DNA of 64,000 nucleotides from Hoeflea sp. YIM 152468. GTDB taxonomy: Bacteria > Pseudomonadota > Alphaproteobacteria > Rhizobiales > Rhizobiaceae. This document shows positions 28,471 to 41,912 of this stretch, piece after piece. The DNA lies in NCBI RefSeq assembly GCF_029210485.1, contig NZ_JARGET010000012.1, forward strand, positions 62,001-126,000. The letters are read 5' to 3'. The first letter of the stretch is position 1. Each line of letters opens with the position of its first letter. Position numbers and translations under genes: made by a program. Under the pieces are notes generated by a model. The model ran no database searches, was not told the origin of the DNA, and was given only the letters and a program-made list of their open reading frames with translations.

Positions 28471-28989
28471 TCAGCGCTTGGCAAAGACTGTCTGCAGCAG
28501 ATGCTGCTGCGCCTGGACCGAGTTTTCATTGTCGGGCTTCAGGGCTGCTGCTTCCGCGGGGCGGTAGATTTCGCGATCAAGCAACGCCACCCGGTTCTGG
28601 ATGCGCAAGGAGCGCTCAACCAGATCTCTGAAGCTGTCGGGCAGATCATTCCAGCCCTGTGCCGCGCGATCGCAATTGAAGCTGTCGAGGCGGACCTTGT
28701 TTTTCTCGGCCAGAACCTGATCCCGGTTCATTTCGCCGTTGTTGACGGCGCGCTGCAGCAGCAGCCAGGACGCCATCTGCATCAGTCGCGTGGTCAGGCG
28801 CATGGATTCTGCGGCGTAGAGAACGCCAGCCAGCCGTGGCAAACCTTTCGATGCAGCCCGGCCCGGGCCATCAAGATAGTTTGCGGTCTCCTCAACAAGC
28901 CCCATACCCTCGGCGTAGAGCGCCTTGAACTGGGATGAATTTGCCATGCGATCTGCAAGGTTGACGGTGTTGAGGCTGGTTTCAGACAT
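28471..28989 (-). CDS. rcdA: RcdA family protein (DUF1465), regulator of CtrA degradation
   Basis: 172 residues from MSETSLNTVNLADRM (ATG at 28987-28989). The DUF1465 body is helical, with FKALYAEGMGLVEETANYLDG and AESMRLTTRLMQMASWLLLQRAV. In Caulobacter, RcdA is an adaptor that joins CpdR and PopA to deliver CtrA to ClpXP for proteolysis at the G1-S transition. The same job is inferred here. A perfect CtrA box (29103-29118) lies 114 bp upstream of the start, so CtrA probably controls its own degradation adaptor. Terminates at the bidirectional hairpin at 28408-28440. Confidence 0.9.
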   Translation of the reverse strand: MSETSLNTVNLADRMANSSQFKALYAEGMGLVEETANYLDGPGRAASKGLPRLAGVLYAAESMRLTTRLMQMASWLLLQRAVNNGEMNRDQVLAEKNKVRLDSFNCDRAAQGWNDLPDSFRDLVERSLRIQNRVALLDREIYRPAEAAALKPDNENSVQAQQHLLQTVFAKR

Positions 28990-29102: not shown

Positions 29103-29118
29103 TTAAGAAAGGGTTAAC
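29103..29118. promoter_or_regulatory. CtrA-binding site upstream of rcdA
   Basis: TTAAGAAAGGGTTAAC is an exact TTAA-N7-TTAAC CtrA consensus. It lies about 114 bp upstream of the rcdA start codon, where a promoter for rcdA would be. Binding by CtrA and its direction of effect are inferred from the motif and the gene beside it. Confidence 0.7.
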
Positions 29119-29271: not shown

Positions 29272-29298
29272 CAAAAAAAGAGCCGCACCAGCGGCTCT
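29272..29298 (-). terminator. Rho-independent terminator (minus strand)
   Basis: AGAGCCGC at 29279-29286 pairs with GCGGCTCT at 29291-29298 across ACCA; seven A at 29273-29279 give the T-tract on the minus strand. It ends either the DUF1192 transcript or the candidate small RNA. Confidence 0.85.
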
Positions 29299-29366
29299 CA
29301 AGAGTTTAACAGGGAGGCGTCAGACAGTGAGACACTGGGTCAGACTGTCAAATCCAGGAAACCCGG
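29272..29366 (-). ncRNA. Candidate CtrA-linked small RNA with terminator
   Basis: On the minus strand a perfect CtrA box (29392-29407) is followed by TTTACT/TACTAG as a possible -10 (about 29372-29379), then about 70 bases without a start codon plus ribosome site, then a strong hairpin (29279-29286 with 29291-29298, ACCA-type loop) and a T-tract (complement of 29273-29278). The transcript would be about 95 nt. It contains a CCUCCC segment (complement of 29317-29322 region) that resembles anti-Shine-Dalgarno motifs of Rhizobiales trans-acting RNAs. Alternative: the hairpin is just the DUF1192 terminator, 150 bp downstream of its stop. I do not recognise a named family. Confidence 0.45.
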
Positions 29367-29391
29367 ATGCCCTAGTAAAGACTTGTAAAGC

Positions 29392-29407
29392 TTAACCGAA
29401 GCTTAAC
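29392..29407. promoter_or_regulatory. Second CtrA-binding site
   Basis: TTAACCGAAGCTTAAC is an exact TTAA-N7-TTAAC motif. It lies 39 bp downstream of the DUF1192 stop and about 25 bp upstream of the inferred start of the candidate small RNA on the minus strand, so that it could control that RNA rather than a protein gene. Confidence 0.65.
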
Positions 29408-29445
29408 AAAGGAAATCTTGTTGATAACATATTGCATTGGTTGAT

Positions 29446-29637
29446 TTATTTTATCTTGAAAAATCCTTCGGCAGCACTTCGACTTGTTGTCTTGGTGGTC
29501 TTGTCTGCTTCAAGACGCTCTATTTCGGCACGTAATACGGCGATTCGCTCCTCGAGCTCTCCGGCTGACAGGAATGTCAGGTCGGATCCGATCTCGTGGA
29601 GCTTTTCTGGTTTCGGGCGCTCATCATCTGCGAACAT
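29446..29637 (-). CDS. DUF1192 family small protein
   Basis: 63 residues from the ATG at 29635-29637 (MFADDERPKPEKLHEIG); the open frame extends 32 codons upstream but lacks family similarity there. The family signature is complete: SDLTFLSAGELEERIAVL followed by a short coiled coil EIERLEADK and a C-terminal SAAEGFFK motif. Function is unknown. It is divergent from the quinone oxidoreductase gene, with about 150 bp between the starts, an arrangement conserved in Rhizobiales. Confidence 0.85.
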   Translation of the reverse strand: MFADDERPKPEKLHEIGSDLTFLSAGELEERIAVLRAEIERLEADKTTKTTSRSAAEGFFKIK

Positions 29638-29791: not shown

Positions 29792-30772
29792 ATGCGTGCA
29801 ATTGAAATTCGTCAACCCGGTGGACCCGAGGTTCTCACCTTGACGACGCGGGAAAAGCCGGTCCCGGGCAAGGCCGAACTGCTGGTCAAGGTGGCCGCGG
29901 CCGGTGTGAACCGTCCCGATTGTCTGCAACGGCAGGGCGCCTATCCGCCGCCAGCGGGTGCCTCCGATATCCCGGGTCTGGAGATCGCCGGCGAAGTCGT
30001 GGAGATCGGATCTGAGGTGACGGCGTTCAAGCCGGGCGATGTTGTTTGCGGGCTGGTGCCCGGCGGTGGCTACGCAGAATATTGCAGCGTCGACGAAACC
30101 AACGCGCTGCCGGCTCCCAATGCACTGACCATGACAGAAGCAGCGGCCATCCCCGAAACCTTCTTTACGGTCTGGCACAATGTCTTCCAGCGCGGTGGGC
30201 TCAAGTCGGGCGAAACATTTCTGGTGCATGGCGGCACCTCGGGCATCGGCACGACCGCAATTCAGCTGGCCAAAGCTTTTGGTGCCCGTGTATTGGCCAC
30301 CGCCGGCACTGAGGCAAAATGCTCAGCCATGCGTGAATTGGGCGCCGATCTGGCGATAAACTATCGCGACAGTGATTTTGTCGCGGCGGTCAAGGATGCG
30401 ACCGATGGCAAGGGTGCGGATCTCATCCTGGATATGGTGGGTGGTGACTACATTACCCGCAATTATCAGGCGGCCGCGATCGAAGGCCGTATCGTACAGA
30501 TTGCGTTCTTGCGCGGACGCAAGGCTGAAGCCGATTTTTCTCTGTTGATGATGAAGCGGCTCACTCACACAGGTTCCACACTCAGAGCCCGGGAAATCCC
30601 TTTCAAGGCGTTGATCGCCACCGAACTGCACCGCCATGTCTGGCCGCTGCTGACGGCGCGAACCGTGCTTCCGGTGCTGGACTCGATCTTTCCGCTGGAG
30701 CAGGCATCGGCCGCCCATCAGCGGATGGAGGATGGTGAGCACATCGGCAAGATCGTTCTCGACATGAGCTGA
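29792..30772 (+). CDS. NAD(P)H-quinone oxidoreductase (zeta-crystallin/PIG3 type)
   Basis: 326 residues from the ATG at 29792, preceded by CAGGAGAG. Zinc-free medium-chain dehydrogenase: AAAGVNRPDCLQRQGAYPPP (N-terminal catalytic domain), the Rossmann fold LVHGGTSGIGTTAIQLAKAFG (about 143-163) and KGADLILDMVGGDY. It lacks the zinc-ligand Cys and His of alcohol dehydrogenases. It is expected to reduce quinones with NADPH in the cytosol. Convergent with the MFS gene (13 bp between stops). Confidence 0.9.
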   Translation: MRAIEIRQPGGPEVLTLTTREKPVPGKAELLVKVAAAGVNRPDCLQRQGAYPPPAGASDIPGLEIAGEVVEIGSEVTAFKPGDVVCGLVPGGGYAEYCSVDETNALPAPNALTMTEAAAIPETFFTVWHNVFQRGGLKSGETFLVHGGTSGIGTTAIQLAKAFGARVLATAGTEAKCSAMRELGADLAINYRDSDFVAAVKDATDGKGADLILDMVGGDYITRNYQAAAIEGRIVQIAFLRGRKAEADFSLLMMKRLTHTGSTLRAREIPFKALIATELHRHVWPLLTARTVLPVLDSIFPLEQASAAHQRMEDGEHIGKIVLDMS

Positions 30773-41751: not shown

Positions 41752-41912
41752 AGCGATCTGCGCCTCTCGACAGGATACACTTTCCCTGGGGCCTTAATTG
41801 ATCCAAAGGGTGCTGTCCCTGACCGGACTCGTGGGTCCGGACATATGGTGCCCACCTACGTTGTAGGTTCCCAGGATCAATACATCCATCGGCTGTTGTG
41901 GATCGCGCTTTT
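41752..41912 (+). ncRNA. ssrS: 6S RNA
   Basis: A transcript of about 160 nt between zapA and the 5-formyl-THF cyclo-ligase gene, the usual 6S location. The 5' AGCGATCTGCG (from 41752) pairs with 3' GATCGC (41901-41906) plus G-U pairs, closing the molecule; CTTTTT follows as terminator. Inside, TTGATCC (41808-41814 region) can pair with GGATCAA (about 41874-41880), CCGGAC with GTCCGG form a strong hairpin, and ACCTAC-GTTG-TAGGT another. 6S RNA binds the sigma-70 RNA polymerase holoenzyme by mimicking an open promoter. I assigned it from position, promoter, length and the long rod-like fold, without a covariance search. Confidence 0.82.

Follow-up and report, generated by a model that had tools for sequence, protein, structure and literature searches.

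The 64,000-nucleotide stretch of Hoeflea sp. YIM 152468 DNA analysed here (the window) encodes, on its minus strand between a DUF1192 gene and the protease adaptor gene rcdA, a small RNA that belongs to a known Rfam family, RF02356 (BjrC1505), and that in our judgement is probably a CtrA-activated, trans-acting member of this family, repressing mRNAs by an anti-Shine-Dalgarno mechanism. The RNA family is real, known and almost unstudied; what is new is its apparent association with a CtrA box and with rcdA, which is strongly supported by comparison between genomes. An earlier note on this DNA had proposed a small RNA that carries an anti-Shine-Dalgarno motif and follows a perfect CtrA box, and these parts of its reading stand; it knew of no named family at this place, but one exists, as the Rfam covariance-model search placed RF02356 here above its cut-off.

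The small RNA gene occupies about 29273-29368 (96 nt, minus strand), its 5' end being predicted at the first hairpin. In the direction of transcription, the locus consists of an exact CtrA box, TTAA-N7-TTAA (TTAAGCTTCGGTTAA, 29392-29406), whose first base lies 38 nt 5' of hairpin SL1; a predicted -10-like hexamer, TTTACT (29374-29379); SL1 itself (ATCCGG-GTTTC-CTGGAT, 29352-29368); a sequence-variable hairpin, SL2 (29324-29348), which has internal mismatches in the window copy; a core, UGACGCCUCCCUGUUAAAC (29304-29322), that includes the putative anti-Shine-Dalgarno motif CCUCCC (29312-29317); and a predicted intrinsic terminator, GAGAGCCGC-TGGT-GCGGCTCTT with a U-tract (29273-29299), of which the GC-rich hairpin (29278-29299) is followed by seven T ending at 29273. 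The perfect box, the -10-like element, the non-coding stretch with CCTCCC and the strong terminator that the earlier note had read are all present at these places, and family models agree with the neighbours that it had named: rcdA (28471-28989, minus strand; NF051867, 203.3 bits against a cut-off of 170) downstream and the DUF1192 gene (29446-29637, minus strand; PF06698, 74.1 bits) upstream, both with assumed start codons. A PIG3-type quinone oxidoreductase gene (29792-30772, plus strand; TIGR02824) lies further upstream on the opposite strand. A second perfect CtrA box (29103-29117, minus strand) precedes rcdA; the motif occurs twice in the 64 kb, against 0.02 occurrences expected, and both flank the small RNA. 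The stretch 29272-29364 (93 nt) folds better than 199 of 200 shuffled sequences (z = -3.09). A simple sigma-70 consensus scan reported no promoter on the minus strand at this locus, and relatives show a weak enrichment of TAnnnT-like sequences 26-32 nt past the box start. The small RNA looks like a discrete transcript with its own promoter and terminator.

The Rfam match to RF02356, reportedly first described by Madhugiri et al. in 2012, spans 29273-29412 on the minus strand and the full model (positions 1-140) at 50.7 bits against a cut-off of 50 (E 1.4e-6), the window copy sharing the core and terminator of the family. The sole other gathering-level Rfam match in the window is 6S RNA (RF00013, 77.3 bits; 41752-41908, plus strand), 12 kb away on the opposite strand. 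A similar arrangement is reported from Sinorhizobium meliloti in the accessible part of PMC2873474: the sequenced transcript SmelC671 (100 nt, 2986421-2986520, plus strand) lies 14 kb from 6S RNA, which is on the other strand. The RFMSmelC671 model, whose named members are S. meliloti SmelC671/sm84 and Rhizobium etli ReC71, is described in the available portion of PMC3927594 as having a conserved CUCCCUGU in a long single-stranded domain between variable hairpins and a 3' terminator, as occurring broadly in Rhizobiales with no occurrence in Liberibacter, and as ranking among the most conserved small RNA models of the order. The window RNA likewise has CUCCCUGU in a single-stranded domain between hairpins and a 3' intrinsic terminator, and is of nearly the same length. 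Because the described features and the arrangement relative to 6S RNA agree, the family is very probably that of RFMSmelC671, a likeness of description and position; the RFMSmelC671 hairpins are described in that portion as highly variable, whereas those of the window's RNA family covary. In the open-access literature without supplements, BjrC1505 appears as a list entry only and nothing links BjrC1505 or RF02356 with CtrA or rcdA, and to that extent CtrA control of the small RNA is not in print.

Homologues of the RNA align readily; alignment A1 takes in 67 diverse copies, each beginning at the first hairpin and ending with the T-run. As RNAalifold recovered no more than the terminator helix from this alignment, the three helices (SL1, SL2 and the terminator) were assigned manually. 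A 31.6-bit RF02356 match (L055) that by reading is the end of a coding gene was judged spurious and dropped before counting. With the bias that hand-named helices bring to pair counts, 89.2% of the 1434 cells of the three helices are paired, compared with 82.6% after shuffling, and 19 of the 22 helix pairs have changes on both sides, compared with 9.5. The covariation score is 0.229, against 0.123 for shuffled alignments (0 of 500 as high) and at most 0.064 when the helices are slid. Changes on both sides affect five of the six pairs of SL1 (96.1% of cells paired) and all eight pairs of SL2, which is the weakest helix by paired cells (78.3%) and to which one added single pair is paired in 51% of cells only; the terminator is paired in 99.6% of cells. 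The core UGACGCCUCCCUGUU (row positions 47-61), which joins SL2 to the terminator, has at least 90% identity at each position across the 67 sequences. Conservation beyond this strain, which the earlier note had required of its small RNA, is thus found in the form of three covarying helices and a near-invariant core, and the CCUCCC that it had singled out as an anti-Shine-Dalgarno element lies within that core. The minimum-energy fold of the window copy adds a weak five-pair hairpin (UGACG/UGUUA) that would display CCUCCC in its loop; this hairpin shows no covariation and forms no part of the structure proposed here.

The RNA is widespread. RF02356 matches at E <= 0.001 were obtained in 53 of 61 genomes (including that of the window) and 36 of 44 genera, with 46 of the 61 genomes above the cut-off, and R1, a promoter-free covariance model of the RNA alone, matches 172 of 199 genomes and 85 of 96 genera of the order (Rhizobiales/Hyphomicrobiales); the stretch is not specific to the strain. 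There is usually one copy per genome. Where genomes lacking a match were examined by way of rcdA, RcdA was found in 11 of 18. By eye, three members of the window's taxonomic family that have no RF02356 match (L447, L448 and L449) hold a diverged copy 5' of rcdA with the core TTTTCTCCCTGTTTTACC, and one genome with no R1 match (L450) holds a copy with the usual CCTCCCTGTT. A diverged core, CTCCCTGTTTTACC, is found in part of the window's taxonomic family (L053, L054, L227 and L447-L449); L053 and L054 fall short of the RF02356 cut-off, and that model misses L447-L449. No copy was visible by eye at L454 and L456, from genomes of 1.4 and 1.5 Mb, which agrees with the lack reported for Liberibacter in the accessible part of PMC3927594.

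The case for CtrA rests on the box in relatives. With 17 same-genus loci and L055 excluded beforehand, 108 order-level loci were taken, a set that does not hold strictly to one locus per genus and includes part of the 172 R1 matches. A pattern search placed 102 of them, which reduce to 95 distinct loci, 47 with an exact box, 47 with one mismatch and one (L027) with three; five of the six leftover loci were placed by coordinate, with a search between -70 and -15 relative to the start of the model, and have an exact box (two) or one mismatch (three), while the sixth, L248, lacks upstream sequence and was left out of the count. A box with at most one mismatch is thus present in 99 of 100 distinct order-level loci (49 exact), compared with control rates of 0.7% in random windows from these loci, 7.5% in mononucleotide shuffles of their upstream stretches and 12.0% in dinucleotide shuffles. 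Loci found with RF02356 are biased towards the box because that model includes it, whereas those found with R1 are unbiased: the 70 R1-fetched loci, less seven repeats of RF02356-derived ones and the cut L248, leave 62 distinct loci, every one of which carries a box with at most one mismatch. In 67 of 93 loci, the box begins 38-39 nt 5' of SL1. Seven diverged copies escaped the models. Of these, L447 and L452 carry an exact box, L455 carries one with a single mismatch at the usual distance, and L448, L449 and L450 differ from the motif at two positions but keep one half-site whole; the state of the box in L451 is ambiguous.

The contig also encodes a CtrA orthologue, some 62 kb away from the small RNA, with 86% identity to the query, which we take to be Caulobacter CtrA. 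In CtrA-activated promoters of Caulobacter, the full motif begins near -35, as described in the available portion of PMC4287350, in which the CtrA class includes rcdA and six non-coding RNAs. No link between those six RNAs and the RF02356 family was made. The window box is as described for such promoters, being exact, conserved and 38 nt before the predicted start; the perfect CtrA box of the earlier note thus lies at activator spacing, and its conservation extends over the order and to many copies outside it. The limits of this support are that the -10 region is weakly conserved, that L027 has three mismatches, and that 9 of 45 copies outside the order lack the box. Spacing and conservation together provide strong comparative grounds which suggest that CtrA controls the small RNA.

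An unlikely alternative, though the one that best survives, is that the small RNA is real and TTAA-N7-TTAA is a housekeeping element, the site of another regulator or a site of CtrA repression, with no tie to the cell cycle. About half of the boxes have one mismatch and three diverged copies retain one half-site only, as this reading would allow; in addition, EcpR1 and GspR have cell-cycle targets yet accumulate in stationary phase and, in the portions of their reports available, are not described as CtrA-driven. Against it, nearly every locus retains a box with no more than one mismatch, far above the rates of the three controls, and the start of the box near -38 is the activator position described for Caulobacter (PMC4287350, in part). 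The half-site bases are 77-99% identical and the spacer varies much more, which also argues against it, although the identity is partly by construction, the 93 loci having been preselected for at most one mismatch. As for earlier surveys, SmelC671 has no listed promoter motif in the table of a 2020 review (PMC7143759), and the CtrA scan in the S. meliloti start-site paper covered protein-coding genes only (PMC3616915).

The genes nearest the small RNA are those for RcdA, DUF1192, the quinone oxidoreductase and L31. Of 94 order-level loci, 85 have rcdA downstream in the same orientation; the quinone oxidoreductase gene was detected upstream in 60 and DUF1192 upstream in 48, the last count resting on a 63-residue query that can miss the gene; a first tally found RcdA downstream on the same strand in 172 of 196 loci, 116 of which came from a pattern scan and were often cut on one side. 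For three agrobacteria, the accessible part of PMC10469942 gives the rcdA orthologues several start sites and CtrA sites further upstream than in Caulobacter. This constancy of rcdA and these distant sites are what would be expected if the small RNA were the terminated leader of rcdA, with one CtrA promoter and occasional read-through feeding the gene, but we consider such an arrangement very improbable: the terminator is almost invariably paired and has a U-tract, rcdA has its own perfect CtrA box, no competing antiterminator is seen in the window fold, and two loci (L033 and L034) keep the small RNA where rcdA was not detected. If CtrA drives the small RNA, the CtrA and start sites assigned to agrobacterial rcdA may instead belong partly to the small RNA.

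Two further readings have next to no probability. The RNA could be a 140-nt species, as the whole-model alignment of RF02356 would have it, with a 5' end upstream of the box and the TTAA box transcribed. The Rfam model extends 44 nt further 5' in the window than the RNA proposed here, over the CtrA box and the -10 region; these first positions (about 1-45) pair poorly in the window, and the S. meliloti transcript, should it be the orthologue, has a length of 100 nt according to the available part of its report. The public RF02356 model thus seems, from its sequence coverage, to hold promoter DNA in its 5' third, and this may depress its scores: the window copy scores 83.4 bits (E 1.2e-15) with R1, in whose own alignment that copy sits, compared with 50.7 bits with RF02356. 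Nor is the hairpin credible as the terminator of a DUF1192 transcript alone with no independent RNA. DUF1192 does precede it in the same orientation, but conservation with covariation extends over SL1, SL2 and the core, a promoter-like box separates DUF1192 from the RNA, 46 of 94 loci gave no upstream DUF1192 (with the short query, which can miss it), and a transcript showing the features described has been sequenced in S. meliloti, as the accessible part of its report states.

Among other known small RNAs of alphaproteobacteria, alphaR8 (RF00519 suhB; MmgR, SisA-D) also combines a single-stranded CCUCCCU anti-Shine-Dalgarno stretch with a terminator; SisA represses through this stretch, according to the available portion of PMC12559287. 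However, the window scores 17.9 bits against the RF00519 cut-off of 41, its core (GACGCCUCCCU) differs from the alphaR8 10-mer (UUUCCUCCCU) and reads GACGCCUCCC in its place, and alphaR8 adjoins an N-formylglutamate amidohydrolase gene in most species, whereas the small RNA adjoins rcdA and DUF1192. SisA/alphaR8 was accordingly rejected as the family on score and kept as an analogy. EcpR1 and GspR, which are tied to cell-cycle control in the same order, were rejected on locus and loop sequence: EcpR1 lies beside divK-pleD and has the loop UCCGCCGCAUCU, which by reading is absent from 29273-29368, and GspR, reported from Sinorhizobium/Ensifer, lies at another locus. Agrobacterium PmaR, which is flanked by two hypothetical genes and is described as interacting through a sequence other than an anti-Shine-Dalgarno region, was rejected as well.

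We propose that phosphorylated CtrA would bind TTAA-N7-TTAA over the -35 region and activate sigma-70 transcription, so that the small RNA would be made while CtrA is active, as the adjoining rcdA probably is. In the predicted RNA of about 96-100 nt, the two 5' hairpins and the terminator would frame an exposed core, GACGCCUCCCUGUU, which would act in trans by pairing with purine-rich ribosome-binding sites and thereby block translation initiation of several mRNAs. Sequence, together with the analogy to SisA/alphaR8, suggests such anti-Shine-Dalgarno repression, and the RNA may have a cell-cycle function. Complements of the core at start sites are numerous in the genome (AGGGAGG, 51; GGGAGGC, 71), compared with 9 and 10 for the reversed controls. 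The longer sequence AACAGGGAGG has three sites in the genome, namely the RNA gene and two that lack an ATG within the next 20 bases. Duplex energy was used to rank 41 open frames taken from the first 30 loci of each pattern. The best contiguous complement at a start was one of 10 bp at a phosphatidylcholine-synthase-like gene (pcs-like, named by reading). In the 16 further same-genus loci where a start was recognised, the complement at this gene is 8-9 nt long in 3 and 4-7 nt in 13, and that at livK is 6-8 nt in same-genus loci. No conserved complement was found at the start in the ctrA 5' regions (a start being recognised in 21 of the 23 loci), and no extended complement to the core in the start regions of rcdA and DUF1192 in the window. 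Across these five genes (pcs-like, livK, ctrA, rcdA and DUF1192), there is no conserved extended complement; given the many AGGGAGG start sites, the target set may be broad and changing.

In a draw of 387 genomes from the class, R1 matches 98, and the weak matches may include unrelated RNAs. From 72 loci outside the order, 12 in which the pattern found no core with a terminator were dropped (the core being visible by eye in some, including L193 and L195), and the remainder reduce to 45 distinct copies. With a slightly wider search window, the box is present within one mismatch in 36 of these (17 exact); at least one of the four tested neighbours accompanies 29 of the 36, and rcdA lies downstream of 17. 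Among the nine boxless copies, three (L176, L309 and L321) have rcdA downstream, and the six without any tested neighbour may be another family. Multiple or tandem copies also occur outside the order, at L226 (G427:C6:79512-79798), where each tandem copy has its own exact box, and on contigs C10 and C15 of G270. A distant type with the core (A)CGTGAAGCCTCCCTG or similar, with no CtrA box and no rcdA neighbourhood, was observed at L310, L314, L317, L320 and L322, and is perhaps a related but separate small RNA family.

These observations permit a broader and more tentative proposal, for which the chances fall somewhat short of even: that the family is an ancient, near-universal member of the CtrA regulon in much of Alphaproteobacteria, providing a cell-cycle-timed post-transcriptional arm beside rcdA that would repress a shifting set of mRNAs with GGGAGG sites, some far-upstream start sites and CtrA boxes of rcdA being in fact its promoter. 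If RFMSmelC671 is the same family, an RNA already among the most conserved small RNA models of its order (PMC3927594, in the part available) is otherwise only listed in the papers found. If CtrA drives the small RNA, a conserved RNA output belongs to the CtrA circuit, one left out by scans restricted to coding genes, for instance that in S. meliloti (PMC3616915), and the comparisons suggest that this RNA is a general, overlooked cell-cycle output in these bacteria.
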